This document shows positions 7,685 through 31,504 of a DNA stretch of 64,000 bases, piece by piece. Numbering within the stretch: position 1 is the stretch's first letter; every line of letters begins with the position of its first letter. Under the pieces are notes generated by a model, which did not search any database, had not been told where the DNA came from, and was given only the letters and a program-made list of their open reading frames with translations. The DNA comes from Acidimicrobiales bacterium (lineage in GTDB: Bacteria; Actinomycetota; Acidimicrobiia; Acidimicrobiales; MedAcidi-G1), in contig JAQWTI010000004.1 in NCBI GenBank assembly GCA_029242745.1, forward strand, positions 1 through 64,000. Direction: 5' to 3'. The position numbers were made by a program, and so were the translations under genes.

Positions 7685-7730
7685 CAGGAATAGTTGACTG
7701 TCCGTTCGTTGCCAAACGGGTTGTGGTCTA

Positions 7731-11260: not shown

Positions 11261-11411
11261 CGAGATCCCTTTCTGTGCATGGCTCGGCCCGTTCGGGCAC
11301 GTTCGGGCCCAGGACCATATTGGTGGTCTTTCGAAGTTCCAGGAAGTTCCACCGGCGTCAGGCTAGCTAGGGAGTCCGACCTACTGGGGCCAGGCAAGCT
11401 GTGGCTTGCTC
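11261..11411. repeat. intergenic region with two pairs of 10-bp-phased repeats
   Basis: The 151-bp gap between the cytidylyltransferase gene and the NeuB fusion is the longest gene-free stretch in the window. CGTTCGGGC occurs at 11290-11298 and 11300-11308, and GAAGTTCC at 11333-11340 and 11343-11350. Both pairs have a period of exactly 10 bp, close to one helical turn. A 6-bp inverted repeat (GCAAGC/GCTTGC, 11394-11409) directly follows the upstream stop but has no T-tract. The region may hold a promoter or operator for the NeuB gene; no clear -10 or -35 was found. Confidence 0.35.
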
Positions 11412-12149: not shown

Positions 12150-13087
12150 GGGTACCCCGCCATTGACTTGTAGTCAGCCAGGTTCTTCTCATGGTCTGAG
12201 AGACGACAAGATACCTCGTCAGCACCATTGAGAAATGCAGTGGTCTGTCGATGAACCCCTGGCTTGAATCGCACATCTAGATCGTCGCTGGGAGCAATGG
12301 TCGTCATCTCCAGTGAGCCGATAGGCATAGTTCTCAGTTCCTCCAGCGGTTGCAAGACCAAACGGCGCTTTCGGGTGAGGACCTCCAAGCCCCAGCGCCC
12401 TGGTCCCTCCCAGTCTCCGTGGTAACTGAATGTGGCACCGTATTCGGTCATTCCCGCACCGGCGAATCGTGCTGATTGTGGGTGCCAGGGAAGTGAACCA
12501 CTGGTCCAAGTTTGCCAGTCCGTAGGACGGCCGCCAAGATGGAAAGCCAGATCGACCACGTGAGACGATTGAGCGAGGAACCAGCGTTGGCGGATTGCCT
12601 CACTGAATTGGACCGGTTCAGTGGCGTGGGGCCACTCTGTTACTTCAAAAGTGAAACTTATTACCCCTCCATCATCTTCAATAGCCCTTCGGGCGGCCCA
12701 GACCGATGCGTACTGACGGCGGTTATAGGCAACGACCACCGACGCGTTCTCGGCAGCTTTATACACGGAATTGATTTCTCCGAGTCCAAGGCCACCTGGC
12801 TTCTCGAGGAGAATGCGGGAAGTTCCTGCGCGGAGAAGGGAGCAGGCGGTTTCGGCTAACTGGTCAACGGTCACTGCCACGATCGCGGTAATGGGTGCAG
12901 GGCTTTCACTTAAGGCCTGACTGATACCGCCAGTTCGTACCGGGTGGCCGGATGAGCGCTCGAACATGGCCGCCGAGATCGCCCCTCTGCCGATTACTTC
13001 AAAGTCTCGGCCGAGGTCGTCGAGGACCGCAGCGTATGCCGTAGCCATAGGTCCCGATCCGACAAGCCACAGTTTGCTACCGGTCAT
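12146..13087 (-). CDS. Gfo/Idh/MocA family oxidoreductase
   Basis: A 313-residue NAD(P)-dependent oxidoreductase with an N-terminal Rossmann domain (KLWLVGSGPMATAYAAVL), the family LLEKP motif and VAYNRRQYASV. A histidine/aspartate pair (SSHVVDLAFHLGG) stands in the usual catalytic helix. Members oxidise or reduce sugars and sugar nucleotides. It is the third of three such genes in the operon, overlaps both neighbours by 4 nt, and lies next to the CMP-synthetase gene. A role in making or modifying the nonulosonic acid or its precursor is likely; the substrate is unknown. Confidence 0.78.
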   Translation of the reverse strand: MTGSKLWLVGSGPMATAYAAVLDDLGRDFEVIGRGAISAAMFERSSGHPVRTGGISQALSESPAPITAIVAVTVDQLAETACSLLRAGTSRILLEKPGGLGLGEINSVYKAAENASVVVAYNRRQYASVWAARRAIEDDGGVISFTFEVTEWPHATEPVQFSEAIRQRWFLAQSSHVVDLAFHLGGRPTDWQTWTSGSLPWHPQSARFAGAGMTEYGATFSYHGDWEGPGRWGLEVLTRKRRLVLQPLEELRTMPIGSLEMTTIAPSDDLDVRFKPGVHRQTTAFLNGADEVSCRLSDHEKNLADYKSMAGYP

Positions 13088-14088
13088 GTGATCGGGACCT
13101 GATCGTGCGCAATGCCCTCCAGATGCGGCCGGTCCTCAAGAAGGCCGGTGAGGAGTACACGGTGCTGTCTGGTAGAGGTAACGAGGTCAGGCAATTCACA
13201 CCTTCCAGTCATGAGGATCGAGTCAACGAGTGGCCCGGTCCGCTCGCTCTGGTGTTCCACTCGCCCATCGATGTGAGCCCCCGATTTGCCGACAGCCAGT
13301 CCATCAGTTTCCGAGAAGGGTTGTTGCACGGTCCACAGATCGTCTGTTGTTTCAATTGACATACAATCAATGGTTCCCGTGCCAGCTGGAGTACCAGAAT
13401 CTGACGGGGGTGTTGAGCGCAGAATGACGGTTGTGCCAGAAGAGAAATTTACTTTGAGTTGTCCAGACAACTCGTAGTGTCCCGCACGTTTCGCTTTTGG
13501 CCAGCAGCGATCGAGCCCTGCCCCATCGACGGTAAGGAGGTTCTCTCCGGTCCACCAAGCGAAGAGGTCCACAAAGTGGATGGCATTGCATCCCAGTCCC
13601 CAAGAGGAGCCATTGATTTCGACGCGGACTGGGCCAGCTCCCACTTTTTGCCGAATTTTCTGAAACCATGGAGTCGTCCGGAACCATGTGTTAACCCATA
13701 CAGGTGTTGCCTGACCAGCGGCTGCAGTGATCCGGTCAAGACCACAGTGGCTTTGTGCCAGTACCTTCTCCAGAACCCATGAGTCGGTGGTGACGTACTC
13801 GCTCAGACTTTCCATGACGCCGGGGCGAGCTCCTGCTGTGGTGGATACGATTGCTAGTTGGAGGTGCTGAGGAAGGGTCCTGGGTCGGTCGTGGAACTCG
13901 ACACTGTGGGGAGATCCTGGACCACCGGCGTCAATCCAACGCTCGCGCGCTACGCCTAGGGCATCCAAGTTGGGATCCAATAGGTGGATCTTCAGTTGGT
14001 GATTACATGCGACAAGGCCTTGGAGATATCTGGATCCGATTTGTCCGCCTCCAATTACAGCAACGGTGGGGATCGTGTTGGTCACCAC
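13084..14088 (-). CDS. Gfo/Idh/MocA-like oxidoreductase, divergent
   Basis: A 334-residue protein with an N-terminal dinucleotide-binding loop (VAVIGGGQIGSRYLQGL) and the two-domain layout of Gfo/Idh enzymes. The usual EKP motif reads EKV (VLEKVLAQS), and the catalytic-helix region reads NAIHFVDLFAWW. These changes suggest altered substrate handling. GTG starts at 14088 or 14085 are both possible and overlap the SDR gene end. It is co-directional and overlapping with the other Gfo/Idh genes of the nonulosonic acid operon. Function beyond oxidoreductase is not assignable. Confidence 0.7.
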   Translation of the reverse strand: MVTNTIPTVAVIGGGQIGSRYLQGLVACNHQLKIHLLDPNLDALGVARERWIDAGGPGSPHSVEFHDRPRTLPQHLQLAIVSTTAGARPGVMESLSEYVTTDSWVLEKVLAQSHCGLDRITAAAGQATPVWVNTWFRTTPWFQKIRQKVGAGPVRVEINGSSWGLGCNAIHFVDLFAWWTGENLLTVDGAGLDRCWPKAKRAGHYELSGQLKVNFSSGTTVILRSTPPSDSGTPAGTGTIDCMSIETTDDLWTVQQPFSETDGLAVGKSGAHIDGRVEHQSERTGPLVDSILMTGRCELPDLVTSTRQHRVLLTGLLEDRPHLEGIAHDQVPIT

Positions 14089-15938: not shown

Positions 15939-17708
15939 ATGGACAGACTGCTCGTATCGACGGCAATCGAGGAGTCGTGGGGAGAGTCCGAACCGGTGTT
16001 GTTCCTCGGGGAGTGGTGTCGCCTCTTTTCCAGACGTCACCGGTGGGAAGGAATCAATGCTCAGGTTGCTCCCTATCACTGGTCCGATCGAGAGAAGGTC
16101 GAAGCTGATAGGACCTATCTTTGGGAGCTTCATGAACGTCTGCTCGAGAGTCTGGCCCATAAGTTAAATGAGGTCCAAGGGGTTGACCATGGACTCCGGT
16201 ACTGGCGGATTTTGATTGGACCCTGGTTGGGCTACTTCACTCAGGCCCTTTTTGATCGCTGGGAGCAGATTGCTCTGTCGACTGTTCAATTTGAGATTTC
16301 TGAGACGGTTGTTCTTGATGGGCTGTCTGATGCCCGCTGTGGGGTTGACATGGCTGATTACCTCGGCCTTGGAAACAGTTGGCAGTGGAATCACTATTTG
16401 ACGGCTGAGATTATTCAGGGATTCACTGGCATCGGCTGCCGGCTTGTCGACGGAGGAGCGACGGAGTCCATCAGCTTGTCCGATGAGGAAGATCCGCCGA
16501 TGTCGATAGCGCACCGGGCCGCAGTCTTGGGGTCCCGACTGTCTCGTCTGTTGGCTCGAAACTCGGATGTAGTTGTCATTAATTCATGCCTTCGCTCGTT
16601 ACGAACGGAGCTGGACCTCCAACGAAGGCTGGGGCAGTTCCCTTCCCTTAGGGCGTTCCAGCCAGTTGAACCGTGCCCGTTTGATCCCACAACCCGTGGG
16701 TGGGATCTCGCTTTTGATCCGCTTGGAACATCAGGATTTGAACGGTGCCTTAGCTCGTTTGTGTCGCGATTCATTCCAATTAGTTATCTAGAGGGCTACC
16801 ACCCGCTAGTCGAACAAGCAGAGAATTGGGGTTGGCCTAAGAGACCCAGGGCAATTTTTACCTCTGCTTCCCATTTCTTTGATGATGTGTTTAAAGCCGG
16901 GTGTGCTGAGAGAGTTGAACGGGGGTCGCCGCTGGTAGTAGGGCAGCACGGTGGGCATATCGGGATGGGCTGGTCTTTTAATCACGACCACCAAGCAGAG
17001 ATTTCTGACGTCATCCTTAGTTGGGGGTGGGAAGATCCGACTGAACCAAAGGTGCGCCCAGTTGGGATGACGAAGGACCTGGTGCTCAAGAGAGACCGCG
17101 AGATTCCGGCGTCCCGGGCAGTCATCGTCATGGGAAACGAGGTGACACAGGTCGGTGCGCTCTCGAGTGCAGCGCTGTCCAGTCAGTTTCTTGACTACAT
17201 GGGAGAACAGATGTGCTTCATGGAGTCGCTGGATCAGACGGTGAGAAATGCATTACTTGTCCGGCTTTCGAGATATGACGGTGACTGGTGTTTTGGGGAA
17301 CGACTAGAGGACCGGTTCCCAGATCTAGAACTGGACAATGGTAAGCGACCTATTAGTGATCTCCTAAGTGAAGCGCGCCTATACATCGCTACAAATAACG
17401 GCACGACCTTCCTAGAGTCCATTTTTCTCGATATACCGACGGTGATGTTCTGGAACACTGAGATGTGGGGGATTACCGAACTGGCAAGACCGGCTTTTGA
17501 TCAGCTCTCAGCTGCGGGTGTGTTCTTCGACAACCCAATCGAGGCTGCAAAGCATGTGTCAGCAGTTTGGGGCGATGTCGGATCCTGGTGGGCCAGCTCT
17601 GATGTGCGAGAAGCTGTTGAGGCTTTTTCGTTTGAGTTTTGTCGCCAGATACCTGACGTCGTAGATGAGGTCCGGCGTGTGCTCACTGAGGTTGGAGCGG
17701 ATAGGTGA
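15939..17708 (+). CDS. LIC12162-type putative transferase
   Basis: A 589-residue protein resembling the LIC12162 (TIGR04331) family of putative transferases found in surface-polysaccharide loci. The start RLLVSTAIEESWGESEPVLFLG fragment and LRYWRILIGPWLGYF are typical. Near the C-terminus, LYIATNNGTTFLESIFLDIPTVMFW resembles the nucleotide-sugar-binding half of GT-B enzymes, where small residues and a conserved acidic residue bind the donor. The biochemical activity is unproven; transfer of a nonulosonic acid or another unusual sugar is plausible given the CMP-sugar genes beside it. It heads a long operon and overlaps the ABC exporter gene by 4 nt. Confidence 0.78.
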   Translation: MDRLLVSTAIEESWGESEPVLFLGEWCRLFSRRHRWEGINAQVAPYHWSDREKVEADRTYLWELHERLLESLAHKLNEVQGVDHGLRYWRILIGPWLGYFTQALFDRWEQIALSTVQFEISETVVLDGLSDARCGVDMADYLGLGNSWQWNHYLTAEIIQGFTGIGCRLVDGGATESISLSDEEDPPMSIAHRAAVLGSRLSRLLARNSDVVVINSCLRSLRTELDLQRRLGQFPSLRAFQPVEPCPFDPTTRGWDLAFDPLGTSGFERCLSSFVSRFIPISYLEGYHPLVEQAENWGWPKRPRAIFTSASHFFDDVFKAGCAERVERGSPLVVGQHGGHIGMGWSFNHDHQAEISDVILSWGWEDPTEPKVRPVGMTKDLVLKRDREIPASRAVIVMGNEVTQVGALSSAALSSQFLDYMGEQMCFMESLDQTVRNALLVRLSRYDGDWCFGERLEDRFPDLELDNGKRPISDLLSEARLYIATNNGTTFLESIFLDIPTVMFWNTEMWGITELARPAFDQLSAAGVFFDNPIEAAKHVSAVWGDVGSWWASSDVREAVEAFSFEFCRQIPDVVDEVRRVLTEVGADR

Positions 17709-19580: not shown

Positions 19581-20549
19581 ATGATTTTGGATGGCGCAAA
19601 GGTCGTAGTAGTCGGTGGTGCTGGCTTGATTGGTTCCCACACCGTCGACCTGCTTTTGAGCGAAGATGTTGACGAGGTGATCGTCTTCGACAATTTGGTA
19701 CGCGGAACTACTGAGAACCTCAATGAAGCACTTGCTGACTCTCGGTGTCGACTCGTTACTGGCGATCTCGCTGACAGCGATGCTCTGCGGGAAGCATTCC
19801 GTGGAGTCGACGGGGTCTTTCACTTTGCTGCTCTATGGCTTCTGCACAGTCAAGAAAAGCCTCGAGATGGTTTCGATGTCAACCTGATGGGGACTTTCAA
19901 TTTGTTGGAGGCCTGCCGGGACGAAGGTGTTGGCCGGCTTGTGTTCTCGTCGTCGGCTTCGGTTTATGGCGACGCAGTCGAGGAACCGATGACTGAGCTG
20001 CACCCGTTTAACAACACTACGGTTTACGGGGCGACGAAGATCGCCGGCGAGGCGCTGGCCACTTCATTTCATCATCGAGATGGCCTGGAGTACGTTGGTC
20101 TCCGATATTTCAACGTTTACGGACCTCGGCAGGACTACAAGGGCGCTTATGTGGCCGTCATTATGAAGATGCTGGATCGGCTGGATCGTGGGGAACCTCC
20201 GATTGTCTTCGGCGACGGCACTCAGGCCTTTGATTTCGTTAGCGTTCGAGATTGTGCCCGAGCAAACATTGCTGCAATGAACGCTGATGTAAACGATCGG
20301 GTTTACAACGTATGCACTGGGCACCAGACATCTATCGCTGAGATCGCAGCCCTACTGATTGATTTGACCGGGCAGGACGTCGGAATCGATTTCCACTCGG
20401 AGGAGACCTCGTTTGTTCGAAACCGAATCGGTGATCCGACCCGGGCTCGTGAGGAGTTGGGATTTGTGGCTGAAATTAACCTCGTTGAAGGCCTGCGCGA
20501 TCTGATCAGGTGGCGTGGCGAGCATCAACAGAAAGCAGAGGCAGAGTGA
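19581..20549 (+). CDS. NAD-dependent nucleotide-sugar epimerase/dehydratase (extended SDR)
   Basis: A 322-residue extended SDR with the cofactor loop VVGGAGLIGSH (about 10-20), SSSASVYGD and a catalytic Tyr-x3-Lys in VYGATKIAGE (near 148-153). RYFNVYGPRQ and FDFVSVRDCA are typical of UDP-sugar 4-epimerases and related dehydratases. It could be a UDP-GlcNAc/GlcNAcA 4-epimerase or other modifier feeding the amino-sugar enzymes that follow. It overlaps the aminotransferase gene by 4 nt (GTGA). Substrate and reaction type cannot be fixed from sequence alone. Confidence 0.82.
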   Translation: MILDGAKVVVVGGAGLIGSHTVDLLLSEDVDEVIVFDNLVRGTTENLNEALADSRCRLVTGDLADSDALREAFRGVDGVFHFAALWLLHSQEKPRDGFDVNLMGTFNLLEACRDEGVGRLVFSSSASVYGDAVEEPMTELHPFNNTTVYGATKIAGEALATSFHHRDGLEYVGLRYFNVYGPRQDYKGAYVAVIMKMLDRLDRGEPPIVFGDGTQAFDFVSVRDCARANIAAMNADVNDRVYNVCTGHQTSIAEIAALLIDLTGQDVGIDFHSEETSFVRNRIGDPTRAREELGFVAEINLVEGLRDLIRWRGEHQQKAEAE

Positions 20550-21664
20550 AGCCACCGCTTCCGTTTATTGATCTGGCTGCACAGCGACAAAAGCTTGGAA
20601 AGCGGATCGACGAGCGGATCAAGACGGTTTTGGACCACGGTTCCTACCTCATGGGTCCCGAGATCGAAATCCTTGAGCAAGTCTTAGTGGGTCGCTCCGG
20701 GCGTCGTCACTGCATCTCCTGTGCATCTGGAACAGATGCACTGCAGATGGCCATGATGGCTCTAGGGGTCGGTCCTGGGGATCGTGTGATCGTCCCTGAC
20801 TTCACGTTCATCGCTACGGCTGAGGCCGTTCGACTGGTGGGCGCTCAGCCCGTTTTCGCAGATATCGACGCGATGTCGTACTGCCTGTCTCTGGATTCAG
20901 TTGAATCAATATTTGAAGATGATGACTCAACAATTGTTGGAGTAATCACCGTTGACCTCTTCGGGCATCCTTCGCAATCTAGGCAGATAGAGGATTTGGC
21001 TGGGAGTCGAGGAGCATGGTTGATAGTGGACGCCGCCCAGTCTTTCGGAGCAACGAGAGGTGGAGAGAGTTGCCTCGCTCCAGGAGTGATGTCGACTACG
21101 TCGTTCTATCCGTCTAAGCCACTCGGTGGTTATGGGGATGGTGGAGCCATATTCTGTGATGACGATGGTCTTGCTGGAGACCTTCGGTCGATCCGTGTTC
21201 ACGGAAGTGGTGAGGTAGCTGGATCCCATGACCGGCTGGGCATTACGGGCCGCCTTGACACCATCCAAGCTGCGGTCTTGCTTACGAAGTTGGAGGTCTT
21301 CGACCAAGAACTCGAGTGTCGGCAGAAGATAGCGAGCCGCTTTGGGCAAGCTCTTGGAGAGTCAATTCGGGTGCCATCGGTGGAAGATGGTGCTACAAGT
21401 GTTTGGGCGCAGTACACCGTCGAAGTTGATGACCGCGACGAGATAAGACAGTTCCTTAATGAAGTGGGGATTCCAACATGTGTTTTCTACCCTCGGAGGG
21501 TTAGTACGAATCTGCCATACCGTTCATTTGAACTCGCTCCAGACGGAGTCCCGGTAGCAGAGAGGGCTACATCCAGAGTCATGAGTCTGCCCATGCACCC
21601 GTATTTGACGGATAGTGACCAGGACCGAATTGTGAGTGAACTGCTTCAGGCATTGGAGAACTAG
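20546..21664 (+). CDS. DegT/DnrJ/EryC1/StrS aminotransferase (WbpE-like)
   Basis: A 372-residue PLP-dependent sugar aminotransferase. The internal aldimine lysine is K191 in FYPSKPLGGYGDGG. The PLP-binding acidic motif is IVDAAQSFGA and the N-terminal SGTDALQMA helix binds the phosphate. The frame is open upstream to 20510, but GTG 20546 overlaps the epimerase stop and gives the family-typical start (KPPLPFIDLAAQ). With the following acetyltransferase and oxidoreductase it fits the WbpB-WbpE-WbpD route that adds and acetylates a 3-amino group on a UDP-2-acetamido sugar. Assignment to that route is inference from gene company. Confidence 0.85.
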   Translation: MKPPLPFIDLAAQRQKLGKRIDERIKTVLDHGSYLMGPEIEILEQVLVGRSGRRHCISCASGTDALQMAMMALGVGPGDRVIVPDFTFIATAEAVRLVGAQPVFADIDAMSYCLSLDSVESIFEDDDSTIVGVITVDLFGHPSQSRQIEDLAGSRGAWLIVDAAQSFGATRGGESCLAPGVMSTTSFYPSKPLGGYGDGGAIFCDDDGLAGDLRSIRVHGSGEVAGSHDRLGITGRLDTIQAAVLLTKLEVFDQELECRQKIASRFGQALGESIRVPSVEDGATSVWAQYTVEVDDRDEIRQFLNEVGIPTCVFYPRRVSTNLPYRSFELAPDGVPVAERATSRVMSLPMHPYLTDSDQDRIVSELLQALEN

Positions 21665-22143
21665 TGAAATCAGTACAGGTCGACGGTTCCGCAGAGGTAT
21701 CTCCTGATGCACTCGTTGGTTCAGGGACAATAATTTGGAACTGGACCAAAGTTCGCGAAAGGGCTCGGATCGGTCAGGATGTGAGTATTGGTCAACACTG
21801 TTACATCGATCATGACGTGGAGATTGGTGACCGCTGCAAGATTCAAAACAGTGTGAACCTCTATCACGGTGTATCTGTCGGTAACGAGGTGTTTATCGGT
21901 CCTTCGGTTACTTTCACCAACGATCTGCATCCCAGGGCCATGGGAGATTGGGAGGTCACGACGACGCGGGTTAATGATGGAGTGTCGATTGGCGCAAATG
22001 CGACCATTGTCTGCGGCATCGAAATAGGCGCCGGCGCACTCGTTGGAGCGGGTTCCGTAGTGATCGACGATGTGCCACCCCGCACCGTGGTCGTCGGAAA
22101 TCCAGCGCGTGTCGTGCGCCGACTAGATGAGGAGCCGAGTTGA
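21664..22143 (+). CDS. hexapeptide-repeat sugar N-acetyltransferase (WbpD/WlbB-like)
   Basis: A 159-residue left-handed beta-helix acyltransferase made of repeated hexapeptides (for example ARIGQDVSIGQHCYI and DGVSIGANATIVCG). The motif FTNDLHPRA is characteristic of the WbpD/WlbB group, which acetylates the 3-amino group of UDP-2-acetamido-3-amino-glucuronate using acetyl-CoA. The protein would be a trimer. It starts with a GTG overlapping the previous TAG by 1 nt, and its stop overlaps the next start by 1 nt. Position between aminotransferase and oxidoreductase genes strengthens the call. Confidence 0.83.
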   Translation: MKSVQVDGSAEVSPDALVGSGTIIWNWTKVRERARIGQDVSIGQHCYIDHDVEIGDRCKIQNSVNLYHGVSVGNEVFIGPSVTFTNDLHPRAMGDWEVTTTRVNDGVSIGANATIVCGIEIGAGALVGAGSVVIDDVPPRTVVVGNPARVVRRLDEEPS

Positions 22144-23114
22144 TGGCCGGTTCAATTTCTGTCGCAGTAATCGGTGTTGGACACATGGGGAAAAATCACG
22201 CCAGGTGCCTTTCGTCGATGAAGGACGTGGACCTCATGGCGGTGGTCGACGCTGATGAAGAGAGTCGGCGTTCGATCGCCAGTGCATTCGGATGTATGGC
22301 TATTGCGTCAATTGACGAGCTCCCCCCGGTGGATGCCGCAGTCGTCGCTGTCCCGTCAGCGCTCCATGACACGGTCGGATGTGCCCTGATGGAACGGGGC
22401 ATCCACTGCTTGATAGAAAAACCTCTGGCCCTCGACTCTGAAGGGGCACGCCGGCTAATAGACGTGAGTAATCGGACAGAAAGAATTCTTCAGGTCGGCC
22501 ATGTTGAGCGATTCAACCCTGCGGTACGGCAACTCCGAGAACTGCTAGATGGCGAGAAGATTCTGGCCGTTAACGCCCGGCGGATGAGCGCCTTTAGTTC
22601 TCGAGTCCACGACATCGACGTGGTAATGGACCTGATGGTGCACGACCTAGACGTAATGCTATTTCTCATGGGTGAGGACGTCGTGGAGGTCGTAGCGCGT
22701 GGAATCGATGGTCCACACGGCTCTGACCACGTTACGGCTCTAGTTGGTTTTGAAGGTGGGCGGATGGCCTCATTGACGGCTAGTCGAATCACTCAGAATC
22801 AGATACGGCAATTGGAGGTCACGACCAAAGACCGGTTCTTCACAGTCGACTATGCGAATCAGGAACTCCTGATTTTCCGGCAAGGCAGGATTGGTGGAGT
22901 TGGAGATGAGAAGTTTGATGGCCGGTACGTGCTCGACGTCGAGACGCGCCGGGTGTTCGTGCGCCGAGCAGAGCCTCTAGTGGCTGAACTTGAACACTTC
23001 ATTGGGGCCGTGCGGGGAGAACATCCTGCTGAAGTAGATGGCCAGCGGGCCCTGGCGGCTCTTGAGTTGGTTTGGTTGATACAGGACGGTTTGGCTGAAT
23101 CGGGCCAAGAATGA
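22143..23114 (+). CDS. Gfo/Idh/MocA oxidoreductase, WbpB/WlbA-like
   Basis: A 323-residue oxidoreductase with VAVIGVGHMGKNHARCL (cofactor loop), LIEKPLAL, VGHVERFNPAVR and the catalytic-helix pair in LMVHDLDVMLFL. This set is typical of the WbpB/WlbA group, which oxidises the 3-hydroxyl of UDP-GlcNAc-type sugars to a keto group for transamination. ATG 22143 is preferred to an in-frame TTG just before it. Together with genes at 20546 and 21664 it makes a three-enzyme 3-acetamido module. A WbpA-type 6-dehydrogenase, which normally precedes this step, is not in the window. Confidence 0.83.
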   Translation: MAGSISVAVIGVGHMGKNHARCLSSMKDVDLMAVVDADEESRRSIASAFGCMAIASIDELPPVDAAVVAVPSALHDTVGCALMERGIHCLIEKPLALDSEGARRLIDVSNRTERILQVGHVERFNPAVRQLRELLDGEKILAVNARRMSAFSSRVHDIDVVMDLMVHDLDVMLFLMGEDVVEVVARGIDGPHGSDHVTALVGFEGGRMASLTASRITQNQIRQLEVTTKDRFFTVDYANQELLIFRQGRIGGVGDEKFDGRYVLDVETRRVFVRRAEPLVAELEHFIGAVRGEHPAEVDGQRALAALELVWLIQDGLAESGQE

Positions 23115-24232
23115 GTCAAGACCGCATTCCGATTATCGTTCCAGACCTCAGATTTGACGAGGTTGAGTCTGACCTGCGTGCTGTCTTTGAGAGCGGGCAG
23201 TTAACGGCTGGACCTTTTGTAGAAAAGTTTGAGCAGGCGGTAGCTGAGTGGGTTGGGGTAAGTGACGCAGTTGCCACGACATCGGCGACCACAGCGCTTC
23301 ATTTGGCGCTTGCGGCCCTCGATGTGGGAGTGGGGGATGAGGTGCTTATGTCTGACTTCACCTTTCCGGCGACAGCGAACGCAGTGATCCAGACGGGGGC
23401 GACGCCAGTGTTTGTTGATTCTGGCGTCTCAGACTTCGCTATGGATGCAGATCAGGCCCGAGCACTTGCGACTGAACGGACCAGAGTGATCATGCCTGTA
23501 GATCCGTTTGGTCAACCCGCTGATCACGAGAAGATCTCAGCGGTAGCAGCTGACGTAGGAGCAAAGGTGATTGTCGATGCCGCCTGCTCGCTGGGAGGTG
23601 AGCGATTTGGATTGGCATGTGGATCCCACGGCGATATGGGGTGCTTTAGTTTCCATCCACGCAAGGTCGTGACTTCCGGTGAGGGTGGAATGATCGCCAC
23701 GTCGGATGCGACATTGGCGAACAGGTTGCGATCCCTCCGGAGCCATGGGGCGATACGAACTGAGAGCGCTGGGCTTTTATTTGCTGAGCCCGGGTACAAC
23801 TACCGGCTCAGCGAGGTCGCTGCGGTTATGGGATTGAATCAAGTCCGCCGACTGAATGAAATTTTGCTCGATCGCCGATTGACAGCATCTCGTTATGACG
23901 AGAAGCTCGTCAGTATCAGGGGTCTTCGAGTGCCTAGGCCAGCCAAAAATGTTAGTTGGTCCTATCAGTCATACGTAGTGGTGATAGATGACGGTGTTGA
24001 TCGAAATAGCGTGATTCGTCGGATGGCTGAGCGTCATGTCGAGACGACGATAGGGACTTATGCATGCCACCAGCACCCCGCATATGAACGCTGGGGTTAC
24101 AGCATTGGTGACCTGCCAAACTCTGACCGGTTTGCCAGACAAGCGCTAACTCTCCCGCTTCTGCCAAGAATGCCGGAGCAGACGGTCGACCGCGTTGTCG
24201 AAGCGCTCGCCTCGGTACTTGACTCAGAATGA
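23111..24232 (+). CDS. second DegT/DnrJ/EryC1/StrS aminotransferase
   Basis: A 373-residue PLP-dependent sugar aminotransferase. The probable PLP lysine is K185 in FSFHPRKVVTSGEGG, with IVDAACSLGG as the acidic cofactor motif and TTSATTALHLAL in the phosphate-binding region. The FHPRK form of the lysine motif is like 4-aminotransferases (perosamine/PglE type) more than the upstream paralogue, so it may add an amino group at C4 of a 4-keto-6-deoxy sugar. That is inference. It overlaps both neighbours by 4 nt and precedes two glycosyltransferase genes. Confidence 0.83.
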   Translation: MSQDRIPIIVPDLRFDEVESDLRAVFESGQLTAGPFVEKFEQAVAEWVGVSDAVATTSATTALHLALAALDVGVGDEVLMSDFTFPATANAVIQTGATPVFVDSGVSDFAMDADQARALATERTRVIMPVDPFGQPADHEKISAVAADVGAKVIVDAACSLGGERFGLACGSHGDMGCFSFHPRKVVTSGEGGMIATSDATLANRLRSLRSHGAIRTESAGLLFAEPGYNYRLSEVAAVMGLNQVRRLNEILLDRRLTASRYDEKLVSIRGLRVPRPAKNVSWSYQSYVVVIDDGVDRNSVIRRMAERHVETTIGTYACHQHPAYERWGYSIGDLPNSDRFARQALTLPLLPRMPEQTVDRVVEALASVLDSE

Positions 24233-25389
24233 GGATCGCTCTTTACGGTCCTTACATGTACGAGTTGGCCTCAGGGCTTAAGGAAAGTTCAGACCATGAA
24301 GTGCGGCTGTTTCTCGACAAAGCCACATTGCCAGGGTCGCTCCTCGCCGAGCCAAGTCTGAGTGATGCAGACTTTGTTGACATCGGACCTTGGGTTACCC
24401 GATATTCCATGCTCCGCCCGACAGCGTCGGAGATTGCTGTTCGATTGAGCGAGTTTGATGTCGCTCTGGTAACCGAGTTGGGCCCTGTGTTTGGTCCAGC
24501 GGCCGGTATCCCGTTTGTGTTTATTCCCACTGGATGGGATCTGACCTGCGGGCCTTTCCCAATTCGTTCAAGGGCCACTAGGTCGCGGGGCCTAGGAGAT
24601 CTTTCAGCCTTGGCTGTTGCTTATCGGATGCGCGCTGGGATTTCAAGAGCAAGTGGTATTTGGGGTGCTTCTTTTGCCCCTTTCGCTGACGCAGCAGCGA
24701 GGTTAGGAAATGAACTAACCAACGATTTGCCACAGCCGATTGATACAGAACTCTTTGCCCCAGGGTTGCATAGAGTTTCAGCTTCTGAGAAATCAGATCG
24801 CATCTCAATCTTCCATCCATCACGCATCATGATGTCTGCCGACCGGTTTCTTGTTGAGACTGGGCAGTGCAAGCGAAATGACCTGCTCTTTGAGGGTATG
24901 GCGCTCGCCATGTCTAGTGGCGTCGATGTCCATCTTCGACTTATCTGGCGAGACAACTGTCCAGACCAAGACATCGCTAGGCGACTCATCGAGGATCTAG
25001 GTCTGACTGAGAACGTGGAGTGGTTGGAGGCCGGAGACCCAAGTGGGTTCACCTGGAGGGAGTTGGCCGATCTCTATCGTGAATCGGACCTAGTCGTGGA
25101 CGAGTTTGGAGGATGGTTCGGTCTCGTGGCCCTAGAGGGAGCAGCGTGCGGCCGGCCAGTTCTTAACCACGTTGACCGTTTGACCATGAGCCAGAAGTAT
25201 CCAGACGGCCATCCGTTTCTGCAGGCGTCAAGTGCCGCAGAGGTCTGCGAGGTACTCGTTCGCCTCCTAGATGAGCGGACGCGAGAAGAAATCGGTGACA
25301 AATCTCGTCGCTGGGTGTTACGACACCACGACCGCTCGGTGGTAGGCCAGAGGGCAGTGGAAAATCTTAAGGGCATTGGTATTCAATGA
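24229..25389 (+). CDS. GT-B-like glycosyltransferase, tandem paralogue A
   Basis: A 386-residue protein with GT4-like layout. It starts IALYGPYMYELASGL, has VALVTELGPVFG and FIPTGWDLTCGPFP in the first domain, and a C-terminal half with IFHPSR, RLIWRDNCPD and FGLVALEGAACGRPVLN, the acidic motif that contacts the donor sugar. It is clearly homologous along its whole length to the next gene (by eye, roughly half the residues are identical), so the pair arose by tandem duplication. Both probably add sugars to the same glycan. It starts by ATGA overlap with the aminotransferase gene. Confidence 0.78.
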   Translation: MRIALYGPYMYELASGLKESSDHEVRLFLDKATLPGSLLAEPSLSDADFVDIGPWVTRYSMLRPTASEIAVRLSEFDVALVTELGPVFGPAAGIPFVFIPTGWDLTCGPFPIRSRATRSRGLGDLSALAVAYRMRAGISRASGIWGASFAPFADAAARLGNELTNDLPQPIDTELFAPGLHRVSASEKSDRISIFHPSRIMMSADRFLVETGQCKRNDLLFEGMALAMSSGVDVHLRLIWRDNCPDQDIARRLIEDLGLTENVEWLEAGDPSGFTWRELADLYRESDLVVDEFGGWFGLVALEGAACGRPVLNHVDRLTMSQKYPDGHPFLQASSAAEVCEVLVRLLDERTREEIGDKSRRWVLRHHDRSVVGQRAVENLKGIGIQ

Positions 25390-26540
25390 AAATTGCATTG
25401 TTCGGACCCTTCATGTTCGAGCTCGCTGTCGGGCTTCGTCAGAATGAGGACAACGAGGTACGACTTTTTCTTGACTCGCGAACTATTCCTACGGGCCTTC
25501 GAGACGAGCCACTCCTCAACGATCCTGAATTTGCTGCTATCGCGCCCTGGGTTGGAAAGCGAGAAATCCTGCGACCGGCAGATGCTGAGATCACCCAGCT
25601 CCTTTCGCGTTTTGATGTAGCGATTGTCACCGATCTTGGGCCTATTTTCGCTGAGCGATCAGCCACGCCGTTTGTATTCTTTCCCGGTGGGTGGGACATA
25701 ACCCATATCCCGTTTCCCATCAGATCCAGATCGGAGCGGACACGCGGTCGAGCAGATGTTGTGGAGACAGTTATCGCGGCACGCCAGCGGCGAGGAGTCC
25801 GGGCTGCATCTAGTATTTGGGCTCCGGCCTTTCGCCCCTACGTGTTGGCAGCAGAGCGGCTCGGGGTGGAGTTGGGTGGATGTTTGCCGCAGGCCATTGA
25901 TACCTCGTTATTCACCCCAGAAGTCAATGAGGTGGCGCAGAATGAATCCCTGTTAAAAGTTTTCCACCCAGCTCGGTTCATGTTTGAGCCCCACCCCTTC
26001 ATAATCGAGACCGGGGGGTGGAAGCGAAACGACCTACTGCTGGAGGGCTTTGCATTGGCGGTAGGTCAAGGACTAGATGGCCACCTTGCACTAATCGAAC
26101 GTGAGGGTTCACCTGATGAGGGTCAGGCCCGCAGGCTCATTGATGATCTTGGAGTTGGTTCTCGAGTCGAGTGGATGACTACCGGGACTAGATCTGAGTT
26201 CACGTGGCGAGAGGTGGCCCAGTTCTACCGAGCGTGTGACGTCTCATCTGATGATTTCGGAGGTTGGTTTGGGTTGGCGGCGCTTGAGGGTGCAGCTTCT
26301 GGTAAACCAGTATTGAACTATTTAGAGCCGGAGGTCATGGTGTCCGAATACCCAGATGGACACCCTTTCGTGCAGACAGAGGATGCTGAGCAGATCTGTG
26401 CAGTACTTTTGCAACTTGCCGATCGGGATCTCCGCGATGAGATCGGTCGAGCGTCACGAGAATGGGTTCTTCAGCATCATGAGCGTGGTGTCGTGGCACG
26501 ACGTTGCGAGCGCATGCTTGCCGATCGTGGACTGGCATGA
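25386..26540 (+). CDS. GT-B-like glycosyltransferase, tandem paralogue B
   Basis: A 384-residue paralogue of the preceding gene with the same landmarks: IALFGPFMFELAVGL at the start, FFPGGWDITHIPFP, KVFHPARFMF, and FGLAALEGAASGKPVLN near residue 300. Both retain the KRND and DGHPF motifs. The differences are spread through both domains, so this is an old duplication with probable change of donor or acceptor. The start overlaps the upstream stop (ATGA) and a 51-nt gap follows. Confidence 0.78.
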   Translation: MKIALFGPFMFELAVGLRQNEDNEVRLFLDSRTIPTGLRDEPLLNDPEFAAIAPWVGKREILRPADAEITQLLSRFDVAIVTDLGPIFAERSATPFVFFPGGWDITHIPFPIRSRSERTRGRADVVETVIAARQRRGVRAASSIWAPAFRPYVLAAERLGVELGGCLPQAIDTSLFTPEVNEVAQNESLLKVFHPARFMFEPHPFIIETGGWKRNDLLLEGFALAVGQGLDGHLALIEREGSPDEGQARRLIDDLGVGSRVEWMTTGTRSEFTWREVAQFYRACDVSSDDFGGWFGLAALEGAASGKPVLNYLEPEVMVSEYPDGHPFVQTEDAEQICAVLLQLADRDLRDEIGRASREWVLQHHERGVVARRCERMLADRGLA

Positions 26541-26591: not shown

Positions 26592-27152
26592 GTGAGTGAT
26601 CTACACGCGAGCCTTCGGCTTCTGCGCGATGAGGCAGATGCCGCGACTAGGCAGAATTGGAATCGAAGCATCCCGTTCTCCGACGCGTTGTTCGACCGTT
26701 GGGAGCGTGCTCGCGTTCTCGGATTCGGTGAGGGTTCGAGTGTCTTTGACTCGGTTCATGTCCTCGGCCAAGTTGAAGTCGGTGAACAAGTCTGGGTTGG
26801 ACCGTTCGTAATGCTTGATGGCTCAGGTGCACATTTGGTGATCGGGAATCTTTGTGACATTTCTGCTGGCGTACATATCTACACCCACGATACGGCTCGG
26901 AGATGTGTGTCTCTGGGGGCAGCTCCTATTCTCACGGCACCAGTGACGATCGGAGACGGAACATATATTGGCAGTCAAGCCGTGGTTCACCCTGGAGTCA
27001 CAATTGGTTCACAATGTGTCATAGGAGCGAACAGTTTCGTTAACGCTGATGTGCCTGACCGGACCATTGTCGTGGGGAGTCCCGCCCGCCCGGTTGGTCG
27101 TGTCGAAGGTGACGGCGACGAGATCACATTTGTCTACGCGAATTCCAAGTAG
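26592..27152 (+). CDS. hexapeptide-repeat acetyltransferase (WcaF/Maa-like)
   Basis: A 186-residue acyltransferase with a left-handed beta-helix. Hexapeptide turns run from VEVGEQVWVGPFVM to VTIGSQCVIGANSFV. The histidine in HIYTHDT is the probable catalytic residue, and IVVGSPARPVGR is the common C-terminal motif. An N-terminal helical region of about 45 residues precedes the helix. It likely O- or N-acetylates a sugar of the glycan using acetyl-CoA. It starts with GTG; the next gene begins 5 nt after its stop. Confidence 0.8.
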   Translation: MSDLHASLRLLRDEADAATRQNWNRSIPFSDALFDRWERARVLGFGEGSSVFDSVHVLGQVEVGEQVWVGPFVMLDGSGAHLVIGNLCDISAGVHIYTHDTARRCVSLGAAPILTAPVTIGDGTYIGSQAVVHPGVTIGSQCVIGANSFVNADVPDRTIVVGSPARPVGRVEGDGDEITFVYANSK

Positions 27153-27157
27153 CTCAA

Positions 27158-27802
27158 ATGTTGAGTAGGCAGCCTGAAGGCTCAAAATCTTTAACTGTTG
27201 TCTCTACCGGCCTCGCAAACGTGGGTTCGGTGGTGAACATGTACCGCCGCCTCGGGATAGAGCCAATTGTTTCCGATAATCCAGAAGAGATTGGTGTCGC
27301 AGATCGCCTAGTGCTGCCCGGGGTAGGAGCGTTCGATCAGGGAATGGGTGCACTCGTCGAACGCGGTCTGGACGTGGCGATCAAGCGGGCAGCAGAGTCG
27401 GGGATTCCGCTCTTGGGCATCTGTCTTGGTATGCAAATGTTGTTCGATGCGAGTGAAGAGGGAAGCGCTAGCGGGCTAGGGCTCATTTCTGGGACCGTCA
27501 GACGGTTGCCTGATACGTCTGATCATGGTCCAATGAAAATTCCTCATATGGGCTGGTCCGTAGTGGACTCAATGGGTGACCACCCCTTGCTCAGCAACCT
27601 TCCAAGTGAATCAAGATTTTACTTTGTTCATTCTTATGCCGCTGTTCCCAGTGATGAAAATTGTGTCATCGGCACGTCGGTGCACGGGGTGTCGTTCGTA
27701 TCTGCGGTCGCCTGTCAGACAGTGATGGGGGTGCAGTTCCACCCTGAAAAAAGCCACCGTTACGGCAAGGCTTTACTTGCCAACTTTGCTGGAGGGGTTT
27801 GA
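27158..27802 (+). CDS. hisH: HisH-like glutamine amidotransferase of the sugar-amidine system
   Basis: A 214-residue class I glutamine amidotransferase of the HisH family. The nucleophile is in GICLGMQ, and the His/Glu pair is in VQFHPEKSH, so glutaminase activity should be intact. Histidine biosynthesis is not the likely role, because it is flanked by sugar genes, followed by a HisF lacking a catalytic Asp, and then by a WbpG-type amidotransferase. Such trios convert an N-acetyl group to an acetamidino group in Pseudomonas O-antigen. It would release ammonia from glutamine and pass it to the HisF partner. The stop overlaps the next ATG by 1 nt. Confidence 0.85.
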   Translation: MLSRQPEGSKSLTVVSTGLANVGSVVNMYRRLGIEPIVSDNPEEIGVADRLVLPGVGAFDQGMGALVERGLDVAIKRAAESGIPLLGICLGMQMLFDASEEGSASGLGLISGTVRRLPDTSDHGPMKIPHMGWSVVDSMGDHPLLSNLPSESRFYFVHSYAAVPSDENCVIGTSVHGVSFVSAVACQTVMGVQFHPEKSHRYGKALLANFAGGV

Positions 27803-28602
27803 TGTTTGTCGAACCTCGTTTCATTCCGGCGCTTCTTTTGGAAGACGGTCGCTTCGTTAAGACTCGTCAGTTCTCTGATCCGGTGTACGTCGGAGATCCG
27901 GTAAATGTCCTCAGCATCTTCAACGAGTTTGTTGTCGATGAAATTATTATTCTTGATATCACAGCAGCTCGGACTAGAACGCGTCAGCCGGTTGAGGCCC
28001 TGCGGAGATACGCCGAAGAGTGCTTTATTCCCATCGCTTACGGCGGAGGTCTTGTTGAGGTGGACCAGTTCGGAGAGTGCTTCCATGTTGGGTTCGAAAA
28101 GGCCATTGTGAACACAATCCTTTCAGAGGCTCCAGCAGTGGTTGAGGCCGCAGCTAGTCGTTATGGGAGCCAAGCAGTTGTCGCCTCCATCGATGTGAGG
28201 GGCGGTGAGGGATTTCGCGAGGTGGTGGTGCGAGGAAATAGCGAAGTTGTCTCAGACTCACCAGCGGAATGGGCGCGTCGAGCCGTCGGCTTGGGGGTGG
28301 GTGAGATTCTAATTACGTCGGTTGATCGTGAGGGAACCGGTCAGGGATTCGACCTTGAGTTAATTAGGGAGGTTGCCGAAGCGGTAACGGTGCCGGTGAT
28401 TGGGCATGGCGGTGCAGGTCGTCGGATGGATCTTGCTGGACCGGTCCATGATGCTGGGGCTTCTGCAACCGCTGCCGGCACCCTGTTTGTGTTTCAAGGG
28501 CCAGCAAAAGGAGTCTTGGTGAATTACCCGCCGCGTCAGCAGATTAAGAAGATCTTGGATAGTGGGCGCCTTAACCAGCCTGACGCACCAAGGGTCGCGT
28601 AA
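27802..28602 (+). CDS. hisF: HisF-like ammonia-channel subunit, catalytic Asp lost
   Basis: A 266-residue TIM barrel of the HisF family. It has the phosphate and barrel motifs ILDITAA, AYGGGL, VASIDVRGG, LITSVDREG and GHGGAGR. The canonical start IIxCLDVKDGRVVK reads FIPALLLEDGRFVK here, so the catalytic Asp11 of true HisF is Leu12, while the second Asp (SIDVRGG) is kept. Loss of the first Asp argues against imidazole-glycerol-phosphate cyclase activity and for an ammonia conduit serving the WbpG-type enzyme. A GGAGGGG ribosome-binding site lies about 4 nt before ATG 27802, which is preferred over the TTG just upstream. Confidence 0.85.
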   Translation: MFVEPRFIPALLLEDGRFVKTRQFSDPVYVGDPVNVLSIFNEFVVDEIIILDITAARTRTRQPVEALRRYAEECFIPIAYGGGLVEVDQFGECFHVGFEKAIVNTILSEAPAVVEAAASRYGSQAVVASIDVRGGEGFREVVVRGNSEVVSDSPAEWARRAVGLGVGEILITSVDREGTGQGFDLELIREVAEAVTVPVIGHGGAGRRMDLAGPVHDAGASATAAGTLFVFQGPAKGVLVNYPPRQQIKKILDSGRLNQPDAPRVA

Positions 28603-28649
28603 CGGTGGAGACGGGTCAGATTCTAGATGACGAAGGGAGGCACCGGGCG

Positions 28650-29798
28650 GTGAGTGAGTGTGTCAGGTGCCTTTACGACAATGCAATTCCCGGAATCGGC
28701 TTCGATGATGAAGGGGTCTGCTCTTACTGCGCTCTTCATGATCAGATGGATCATCAGTATCCGGTTGGTCCTGCTGGAGAAGCAATGTTGCAAGAAATCA
28801 TTGACGAGATGAAAGCTGATGGTAAGGGCCGTGACTACGACTGCATTCTCGGTGTGAGCGGCGGCTGCGATTCGTCTTTTCTCGCACACGAGATGGTTAA
28901 GCGTGGCCTGCGCCCGCTAGCGGTGCACTTCGACAACACTTGGAACAGCCCGATAGCGACAAACAATATTTATACCGTGTTGGACCAGTTGGACATCCCT
29001 CTGGAGACTTTCGTAGTTGACAATCATGAGTATGACGACATCTATCGAGCATTTATCGAATCAGGGGTCCGAGATATAGAGGCACCAACTGATATTGGTT
29101 TTATGGGCGTGTTGTATCGGGCTGCTGAGAAACATGGGGTAAGACACATAGTTGAGGGACATTCCTTCCGGACCGAAGGAGTTTCTCCCCTTGGGTGGCT
29201 ATACATGGATGGTCGGTACATCCGAGAAATCCACCGGCGCTTTGGAACTCTCCCAATGAAGACATTCCCGAACATGCCATTTACTCAATTCGTGAAGTGG
29301 GCTGCATTCTCAGGGATTAGACGTCACCGGCCTCTGTATCACCTCGATTACCACAAAGAACAGACCAAGCAGTTCCTAACTGATGAGTACGGCTGGGAGT
29401 GGTACGGAGGCCACCACCTAGAGAATCGGTTCACGGCTTTTTACCACTCCTACTTTTTGCCACAACGTTTTGGCGTAGACCAGCGAATTAACGAGTTGTC
29501 TGGTCGAGTTCGGTCCGGACAGTTGTCTCGGCCAGCAGCAAAGGCGGAGTTTGATATCCCGCCGGTGATTAATAACGAGTTACTTGAGATGGTCAAGAAG
29601 CGCTTGGGGTATACGGAGGAGCGGTGGAAGGAACTGATGGAGGCTCCCCACAGGCATTACAGCGAATTCCCGACTTACAAGACAACCTTTGAGCGGCTCC
29701 GGCCTCTCTTCTGGCTGCTATACAGGCTCAACCGAGTTCCCAAAACTTTTTATGTCAAGTTCTGCCAGTCTCGATCAGCGATTAAGGAGATTCGGTGA
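28650..29798 (+). CDS. WbpG/PseA-type N-acetyl-sugar amidotransferase
   Basis: A 382-residue protein of the N-acetyl sugar amidotransferase family (TIGR03573-like). An N-terminal zinc-ribbon pattern (CVRC and CSYC) precedes a PP-loop ATP-pyrophosphatase motif SGGCDSS (70-76). LAVHFDNTWNS and EGHSFRTEG are further family motifs. It activates the N-acetyl carbonyl with ATP and accepts ammonia to form an acetamidino group. The ammonia should come from the two preceding gene products. GTG 28650 is chosen because a GGGAGG site lies 9 nt upstream and the protein then begins MSECVRC as family members do; the frame is open to a GTG at 28605. Confidence 0.87.
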   Translation: MSECVRCLYDNAIPGIGFDDEGVCSYCALHDQMDHQYPVGPAGEAMLQEIIDEMKADGKGRDYDCILGVSGGCDSSFLAHEMVKRGLRPLAVHFDNTWNSPIATNNIYTVLDQLDIPLETFVVDNHEYDDIYRAFIESGVRDIEAPTDIGFMGVLYRAAEKHGVRHIVEGHSFRTEGVSPLGWLYMDGRYIREIHRRFGTLPMKTFPNMPFTQFVKWAAFSGIRRHRPLYHLDYHKEQTKQFLTDEYGWEWYGGHHLENRFTAFYHSYFLPQRFGVDQRINELSGRVRSGQLSRPAAKAEFDIPPVINNELLEMVKKRLGYTEERWKELMEAPHRHYSEFPTYKTTFERLRPLFWLLYRLNRVPKTFYVKFCQSRSAIKEIR

Positions 29799-31504
29799 AA
29801 ATTCTTGGACTTTCCAACGCGTGGGATGCCGGTGCGGCACTTGTAGTTGACGGCCAGATCGTTGCTGCTGCAAATGAGGAGCGATTCACGCGAATAAAGT
29901 TGGATCGGTGTTTTCCTGAGCAGGCTATTCGATATGTCCTGAGTGTTGGGGGTCTGGAAATCGACCAGATCGACTTTGTGGCTTCAGGTTGCTGGAAGGG
30001 CGTGGATCAAGATGTCACAGCCCCCCGATTGATTTCTGATACTGCTGATCAGATTCAAGAAGCTGACGATCCGGAGCGGACGACTGAGATCATTACCCAG
30101 CGACTTGAGGTGTCAAGTCGAAGGGACCAGGAGTTCCGGGACGAACTTCTTTTATGTCTTAGCCGTTACGGAGTTGAAGAGAGTCGAATTAGGTTCTTTG
30201 ACCACCACTTCACTCATGCTGTTTCTGCCTGGAGCCCTTCTGGGTTCGACGAGGCACTAGTTCTAACCGCCGATGGGCGAGGCGACGGACGATCCGTGAC
30301 GTTGTGGAGAGGATCGGGGACTGGGCTCGAACTGATCGACATGGCTACCGAACTTGTAAGCCCAGGGGCGCTCTACGGCTTCGTCACGGGGTACATGGGG
30401 TTCGTTCCCGATCGGCATGAAGGCAAAGTAACCGGCCTCGCTGGCTATGGACGTATGTCAGGAGCGTATGACCAACTACGGGCTGGGTATGGCTTTGAGG
30501 CGGACCAAGGTCGGCTTTGGTCCAAGATCGGATCGGCGTACTCACCGTTTGCCAGTACAGAGCTCCCTGATTTGACGCGCGGACTTGACGGCTATAGCCG
30601 GGAGGACGTGGCGTTCGGGGTGCAGACGTTGTTTGAGGAAAGCCTGGTGGGATTCTTGTTGAACGCCATCGGGCGACTGGGGATTGAGTCGACGAACTTG
30701 TGCCTAGCCGGTGGCTGCATGGGTAATGTCAAACTGAATTACGAACTACGAAAAATAAATCAGGTCGATGGGGTATACGTCTTTCCTCATATGGGGGACG
30801 GTGGCCTCGCTCTGGGCGCTGCGATGGCCATTGAGTTAGAAAATCATTTCCAGCGAGTTCCAATGGAAACTGCTTACCAGGGTCCGTCATTCACCGATGT
30901 AGAGGTGGAGCAGGCAGTTGTTGAGTCTGGTCTCCCATTCGAAACGCTAGAAGAGTCAGCGATTGCTCGGGTTACCGCTGGGTTCCTAGCGGACGGCCTG
31001 ATCGTGGGCTGGTTCCAGCAAGGGATGGAGGTTGGGCCGAGGGCATTGGGTGGAAGGTCGATTCTGGCTGCGGCAACGGACCAGACAATAAATGATTCAC
31101 TTAACAAGAGGTTGGAGCGAACCGAGTTTATGCCATTCGCTCCCGTTACGACAGATTCACTTGCTCCGAAGTGCTTTCTGGAATGGCAAGCCGATCAGAT
31201 AGCTAGTCGATTCATGACTATGTGTTACGACACCACTCCTTTGCTTGCCGAGCGCTGTCCGGCCGTAGTGCATGTCGATGGAACTGCCAGGCCTCAGGTC
31301 GTATTCCGTAAGCACAATCCTAGGTACCACGATGTTGTTGAGTTCTACGCTGCGGCAACTGGCAATCCGGCAGTCATCAATACGAGTTTCAACCATCACG
31401 AAGAGCCAATTGTTCTCTCTCCCCAGGACGCCCTGCGAAGTCTTGTTGACGGAAATGTCGATGTCTTGGTTATTGGACGTTGTGTCGTCTGGCCTGAGCG
31501 TTGA
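29795..31504 (+). CDS. NodU/CmcH-family carbamoyltransferase
   Basis: A 569-residue carbamoyltransferase. The N-terminal ASKHA-type domain starts ILGLSNAWDAGAALVVDG and has NEERFTR, FFDHHFTHA with clustered metal/catalytic histidines, and LTADGRGDGRS. The C-terminal YrdC-like domain has GWFQQGMEVGPRALGGRSI, INTSFNHHEEP and a late IGRCVV. The family moves a carbamoyl group from carbamoyl phosphate (via ATP) to a hydroxyl, as in Nod factors and antibiotics. Here it probably decorates a glycan sugar. It starts with GTG overlapping the previous stop (GTGA) and ends the long operon, 18 nt from a convergent gene. Confidence 0.88.
   Translation: MKILGLSNAWDAGAALVVDGQIVAAANEERFTRIKLDRCFPEQAIRYVLSVGGLEIDQIDFVASGCWKGVDQDVTAPRLISDTADQIQEADDPERTTEIITQRLEVSSRRDQEFRDELLLCLSRYGVEESRIRFFDHHFTHAVSAWSPSGFDEALVLTADGRGDGRSVTLWRGSGTGLELIDMATELVSPGALYGFVTGYMGFVPDRHEGKVTGLAGYGRMSGAYDQLRAGYGFEADQGRLWSKIGSAYSPFASTELPDLTRGLDGYSREDVAFGVQTLFEESLVGFLLNAIGRLGIESTNLCLAGGCMGNVKLNYELRKINQVDGVYVFPHMGDGGLALGAAMAIELENHFQRVPMETAYQGPSFTDVEVEQAVVESGLPFETLEESAIARVTAGFLADGLIVGWFQQGMEVGPRALGGRSILAAATDQTINDSLNKRLERTEFMPFAPVTTDSLAPKCFLEWQADQIASRFMTMCYDTTPLLAERCPAVVHVDGTARPQVVFRKHNPRYHDVVEFYAAATGNPAVINTSFNHHEEPIVLSPQDALRSLVDGNVDVLVIGRCVVWPER

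Follow-up and report, generated by a model that had tools for sequence, protein, structure and literature searches.

A putative WbpG/HisH2/HisF2-type acetamidino-sugar system in an Acidimicrobiales genome

The window analyzed here is a stretch of 64,000 nucleotides from an Acidimicrobiales bacterium of the MedAcidi-G1 lineage (GCA_029242745.1, contig JAQWTI010000004.1). It carries three consecutive plus-strand genes, which encode the class I amidotransferase glutaminase subunit HisH2 (27158-27802), the HisF-like barrel HisF2 (27802-28602), and a WbpG/WbuX-type N-acetyl sugar amidotransferase (28605-29798). Together, these proteins very probably constitute a WbpG/HisH2/HisF2-type N-acetyl sugar amidotransferase system that makes an acetamidino sugar for an envelope glycan. 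In the proposed pathway, HisH2 would hydrolyze glutamine and free ammonia, which would then pass through the HisF2 barrel, where the gate and channel are kept and the Asp11 used for the imidazole-glycerol-phosphate (IGP) reaction is lost. HisF2 may dock onto the WbpG-type enzyme and channel the ammonia into it. At its PP-loop, that enzyme is expected to use ATP for activation of the N-acetyl carbonyl on a nucleotide-activated amino sugar. The ammonia would then turn the activated N-acetyl into an acetamidino group. Genes upstream in the same putative operon would make the sugar, probably a hexose or hexuronate of the 2,3-diacetamido type, and the acetamidino product would end in a polysaccharide or glycan of the envelope, presumably at the cell surface.

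Since the mechanism as such is already established, a specialist would find little surprise here. The initial annotation proposed an ammonia channel for amidine formation rather than histidine synthesis, a proposal supported by the family scores, the WbpG-type neighbor, the surrounding sugar genes, and a separate his cluster on contig C55. When a HisF lacking Asp11 stands next to a WbpG-type gene, it can be read as an amidation subunit and is not one to annotate as histidine synthesis. The locus also extends the acetamidino-sugar gene set to a further lineage, which it probably reached via horizontal transfer.

The amidotransferase and its two partners

Score, motifs, and predicted fold all identify the WbpG-type protein (397 aa) as an N-acetyl sugar amidotransferase. 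Its gene begins 3 nt past the end of HisF2 at 28602, directly after it as first described, and the product scores 211.8 bits on TIGR03573 against a cut-off of 203.2. The motifs described for this family are a tetracysteine, CXXCXn[GN]XCXXC, and a PP-loop, SGGXDS (PMC10607449). The window protein has the zinc tetracysteine as C19-C22-C39-C42 (G37-V-C39-S-Y-C42) and the PP-loop as SGGCDS at residues 85-90. Among 93 aligned relatives, the four cysteines are kept in 93, 87, 87, and 89, respectively; all 93 retain the SGG and D of the PP-loop.

An AlphaFold model of the protein, built from a 25-row alignment, reaches a pLDDT of 92.1 and a pTM of 0.90. Its best structural counterpart is 8wex from Legionella (Z 26.2, rmsd 3.2, 312 aligned residues, 20% identity), followed by sulfur transferases and NMN/NAD synthetases with Z scores of at most 11.6. 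That counterpart is the Legionella pneumophila enzyme LpNASAT, which has the fold, zinc tetracysteine, and PP-loop in common with the window protein despite the low identity (PMC10607449). In the reaction described for such enzymes, ammonia is joined to the N-acetyl group of a sugar, probably with conversion of ATP to AMP and PPi (PMC10607449).

HisH2 (214 aa) scores 214.4 bits on the HisH model TIGR01855, above the cut-off of 105.4. The genomic histidine-pathway HisH scores 180.7 bits on the same model, which does not separate HisH from HisH2. The catalytic triad Cys89-His195-Glu197 is intact, as the initial annotation had noted for this subunit. In 78 relatives, the triad columns hold Cys in 75, His in 73, and Glu in 73; the remainder are gaps save one Ser.

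The HisH2 stop overlaps the ATG of HisF2 (27800-27804), making the ATG at 27802 the likely start of a 266-aa protein; a TTG one codon 5' is a possible alternative. An ungapped alignment to HisF-LUCA (4evz) pairs Leu12 of the window protein with Asp11, which bears out the claim that leucine occupies the Asp11 position, and 12 is the right number for this residue because 27802 is the likely start. The accompanying claim that a second Asp is kept stands only in part. The Asp of the LLLEDGR stretch is present, at position 14, which is not a catalytic position, and the true second catalytic residue, Asp130, is kept as well (Asp131 in the window protein). The window protein retains in full the ammonia gate described for Thermotoga maritima HisF (Arg5, Glu46, Lys99, and Glu167), as R6, E47, K100, and E168.

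These residues were compared across HisF-like frames from the fetched loci. Removal of the window copy (L021) and the genomic hisF and hisA (L001) from 83 frames leaves 80 relatives, most of them found through a WbpG neighbor, so the sample represents the WbpG system by construction. Position 11 is Leu in 70, Gln in 6, Thr in 1, and Asp in 2, with one gap from a shortened frame. Asp11 is therefore missing in 77 of the 79 readable relatives, nearly all from WbpG-type loci. By contrast with this loss, the gate is almost invariant: Arg5, Glu46, and Lys99 are each kept in 79/80 (with one Arg in place of Lys99), and Glu167 in 80/80. Asp130 is kept in 77/80, the other three having Glu, and position 14 varies, with Asp in 24/80, N, G, E, and other residues elsewhere, and Ala in the genomic histidine HisF.

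Since Asp11 is missing from 77 of the 79 and the gate is nearly unchanged, the loss is a signature of the HisF2 group, not a peculiarity of this genome, and a pattern so widely shared is not due to chance. The unusualness first implied for the missing aspartate does not hold up, as the loss marks almost the whole group and an NCBIfam model for that group already exists. The combination of no Asp11, a kept gate, and a WbpG neighbor, a pattern derived in this analysis that has no published definition, is present in the window HisF2. Its two residue features separate most HisF2 proteins from HisF, a distinction that the general models for HisH and WbuZ fail to draw. A search of the open-access literature found no report of Asp11 loss in HisF2, nor of an acetamidino sugar in this lineage.

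Family placement and the separate histidine pathway

The best family for the window HisF2 is AglZ/HisF2 (NF038364), with 273.5 bits. On the hisF model (TIGR00735), it scores 162.1 bits, below the cut-off of 294.55, so that the frame at 27802-28602 fails as a histidine-pathway HisF both at residue 11 (Leu12) and by score.

Several observations weigh against assigning the trio to the acetamidino system. The NF038364 score falls short of the curated equivalog cut-off of 310 bits, which is reached in none of 296 sampled genomes of the class. The WbuZ model gives the genomic hisF 259.5 bits and the window HisF2 230.4, and was rejected as a discriminator because a true hisF scores above the window protein. 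Two classmates with genomes of about 1 Mb (loci L005 and L007) have a HisF-like gene beside a WbuX-type gene and keep Asp11, so the loss is not universal. At position 130 their proteins have Glu, which inverts the usual pattern, and they are 28% identical to the window HisF2. Finally, among the best 80 named WbpG loci of a longer list, HisF2 is unseen in 16 and HisH2 in 14, as counted within the stretch available around each locus. Because the NF038364 cut-off was tested and missed, the window protein is classed as HisF2-like and not as an NF038364 equivalog; judged by its sequence, it would work like that family, and it sits with the family's partners.

Histidine synthesis has its own genes in this genome. 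A PF00977 profile search returned four places. Two are the hisF and hisA genes of contig C55, one is the gene in the window, and the last is a weak match on C39. An NCBIfam scan of C55 identified a cluster of hisD, hisC, hisB, hisH, hisA, hisF, and hisI. Each of the seven exceeds one or more curated cut-offs, and a single unassigned frame separates hisF from hisI. The HisF encoded there has Asp11 in place and reaches 348.2 bits on the hisF model (cut-off 294.6), against 204.8 on AglZ/HisF2. The initial annotation would have been refuted had the window pair been the only hisH/hisF in the genome; with a second pair on C55, that refutation fails.

The scores, residue 11, and the separate cluster led to rejection of the window pair as a second functional histidine synthase, and an IGP synthase of the histidine pathway that still works without Asp11 is extremely unlikely. 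In favor of that role, the window HisF2 is 37.9% identical to the genomic HisF and keeps Asp130 and Lys19 along with much of the pattern at the phosphate site. However, Asp11 is essential for the cyclase, as established for T. maritima HisF, the score lies far under the hisF cut-off, the his cluster is elsewhere, and the gene is part of a sugar operon, next to WbpG.

The sugar operon and the probable substrate

The trio, here placed in the acetamidino-sugar pathway, lies within a longer run of plus-strand genes. Those between about 19581 and 26540 overlap or almost touch one another, and the start of the gene after the trio overlaps the WbpG-type stop. Because of these overlaps and near-contacts, the stretch from about 19581 through that last gene looks like one operon.

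The run opens with a GalE-like NAD-dependent epimerase (19581-20549), which matches PF01370 with 200 bits and the galE model with 184 bits, below its cut-off. By eye, its SSSASVYG stretch is without the acid pair that is presumably a trait of dehydratases. DegT1 (20546-21664, GTG start at 20546 inferred) is a WbpE-like DegT-type aminotransferase, with 310 bits against WbpE (3nyu) and a higher 344.5 bits against 4qgr. Next come a WbpD/WlbB-like hexapeptide acetyltransferase, Hexa (21664-22143), whose top Protein Data Bank (PDB) match is the lipopolysaccharide biosynthesis acetyltransferase 3mqg (3.1e-32), and a Gfo/Idh dehydrogenase (22140-23114) that resembles UDP-GlcNAc 3-dehydrogenase, or WbpB. 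The dehydrogenase scores 210 bits on NF040723, below the cut-off of 450, and its top PDB match is 7bvj (1.6e-48).

DegT2 (23111-24232), a second DegT-type sugar aminotransferase, scores 328.6 bits on PF01041, and its best PDB matches are 9bgp, 8vr3, and perosamine synthetase. Two related tandem genes (24229-25389 and 25386-26540) give weak glycosyltransferase matches; the second is without a Pfam match. A hexapeptide acyltransferase, AcT (26592-27152, PF00132), lies directly 5' of HisH2. Downstream of the trio, a NodU-type carbamoyltransferase (29795-31504) exceeds the cut-offs of PF16861 and PF02543. Farther upstream, a plus-strand LIC12162-family transferase gene (15939-17708) scores 444 bits against a cut-off of 225 and is likewise without a Pfam match.

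DegT1, Hexa, and the Gfo/Idh dehydrogenase together suggest the placing of a 3-acetamido group onto UDP-GlcNAc or its uronate, and the substrate is likely a 2,3-diacetamido precursor. Two places in the genome lie above a UDP-sugar dehydrogenase cut-off, both on contig C38. With DegT2, the GalE-like enzyme, and the acyltransferase also present, more than one N-acetyl group could be the one amidated.

In Pseudomonas aeruginosa, HisH2 and HisF2 are the partners of WbpG. The O5 locus and the window hold the same three protein kinds, and the window neighbors match WbpE and resemble WbpB and WbpD, the latter two judging by function names. WbpG of O5 forms the 3-acetamidino group of ManNAc3NAmA (PMC10607449). 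Unlike O5, the window's genome, which is 94.7% complete, gave no match to the WbpI-type UDP-GlcNAc 2-epimerase family (Epimerase_2, PF02350); the manno sugar of Pseudomonas is therefore not expected and was judged an unlikely product. In Methanococcus maripaludis, MMP1081 modifies a sugar of an archaeal N-glycan with a 3-acetamidino group (PMC2913515). The window's genome differs in giving no match to the oligosaccharyltransferase STT3 (PF02516), and protein N-glycosylation via an STT3 enzyme was rejected on that ground.

Other known systems act on different sugars. WbuX of E. coli O145 forms an acetamidino group on the N-acetyl sugar L-FucNAc (PMC10607449), and Campylobacter PseA/PtmG do so on nonulosonic acids (PMC13317340), both unlike the likely diacetamido precursor of the window. 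The trio might instead amidate another target: a carboxyl group (giving a uronic amide), an N-formyl group, or a nonulosonic acid produced through the NeuB and CMP-transferase genes at 9-12 kb. The opposite strand of the window does carry genes for a NeuB-domain protein and a CMP-sugar transferase, acetamidino nonulosonates occur in Campylobacter and Legionella (PMC3958885, PMC3694923), a formyltransferase gene replaces AcT before WbpG in Agrobacterium RAC06, and the locus of some relatives includes an asparagine-synthase gene. Even so, the operon genes resemble those of 3-amino sugar rather than nonulosonate synthesis, and the NeuB genes are about 15 kb away on the other strand, which makes a different target unlikely. 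The NeuB protein itself (9014-11260, minus strand, 748 aa) combines an N-terminal CBS match with a C-terminal xylose-isomerase-like barrel, and the CMP-sugar transferase gene adjoins it.

Genetic evidence on such trios is available from Sphingomonas, an alphaproteobacterium. A colony-morphology screen of Sphingomonas sp. LM7 recovered transposon hits in WbuX (12), AglZ/HisF2 (10), and HisH (9), all in a cluster B that its authors assign to a cell-surface polysaccharide (PMC11340318). Cluster B also encodes a DegT-type PLP-dependent aminotransferase, a WxcM-family acetyltransferase, an MviM-family dehydrogenase, and a short-chain dehydrogenase/reductase (SDR) (PMC11340318). It thus resembles the window in joining WbuX, AglZ/HisF2, and HisH with an aminotransferase, an acetyltransferase, a dehydrogenase, and an SDR, yet it also includes an exosortase-associated amidotransferase, and the window has the NodU-type carbamoyltransferase. 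The hits indicate that the three genes belong to a single pathway, and are no proof of the window's product. A more specific proposal, that the window encodes an undescribed surface sugar of the gluco 2,3-diacetamido type bearing both acetamidino and carbamoyl groups (the latter from the NodU-type gene), made by a cassette that moved between phyla, is tentative and on the doubtful side.

Distribution and related assemblies

Related cassettes occur in many phyla. The best 80 named WbpG loci comprise 37 close ones (identity at least 46%) and 43 farther ones. Within the stretches covered, HisH2 is seen in 36/37 close and 30/43 far loci (66/80 overall), and HisF2 in 32/37 and 32/43 (64/80). The close loci also contain DegT2 (28), SDR (27), AcT (18), Hexa (18), Gfo (11), and DegT1 (10), and an AcT homologue lies directly 5' of WbpG in 14 of them. 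The carbamoyltransferase is not a constant companion, as NodU was seen in 0/37 close and 5/43 far loci. A locus from Allosphingosinicella (L047) carries a cassette much like that of the window, plus a nucleotide-sugar dehydrogenase named by eye.

Within the class, the WbuX cut-off is exceeded in 17 of the 296 sampled genomes. Thirteen class genomes, all among those 17, score 255-287 bits on AglZ/HisF2, and the next genome reaches 234. Four other members of the window's family were searched, and no WbuX match was found in them. This patchiness, together with the HisF2 score below its curated cut-off, could indicate a decayed or silent operon that makes no acetamidino sugar. However, all frames are intact and tightly overlapping, and the catalytic motifs of HisH2 and WbpG are kept, leaving decay or silence very unlikely.

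In a tree of 51 WbpG proteins, the window protein joins L039-L043, which come from Pseudomonadota, Myxococcota, and Bdellovibrionota (support 93/94, not starred), and stands apart from the five classmates included (L009, L015, L018, L019, and L020); the branches are long and the placements unsure. Recent vertical inheritance within the class was rejected, with that same uncertainty, as WbpG groups with other phyla rather than with classmates. The patchy distribution fits horizontal spread and is also compatible with loss; the window cassette was probably acquired horizontally, as judged from these sequence comparisons.

Other arrangements were seen as well. A Saprospiraceae locus (L072, about 6600-12900) holds two WbpG-HisH2-HisF2 trios in tandem, perhaps for two amidination sites. 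In the Agrobacterium RAC06 locus (L119), the formyltransferase gene that takes the acetyltransferase's place directly 5' of WbpG lies at 12856-13809, with HisH/HisF2 about 5 kb off. In two other loci (L130:4630-8796 and L131:3590-11707), a WbuX-like PP-loop domain that has the tetracysteine splits the adenylation domain of a nonribosomal peptide synthetase (NRPS). The L130 protein scores 120.7 bits on WbuX over residues 874-1189, between AMP-binding (454-785) and AMP-binding_C (1194-1254). A literature search for work joining an NRPS adenylation domain with a WbuX-like insertion found none. Weaker signs of such an insertion occur in L024, L025, L026, L028, and L029 and in plasmid matches from Streptomyces (H52) and Roseovarius (H53). 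The WbuX-like domain inside these synthetases might be an amidine- or thioamide-forming module.

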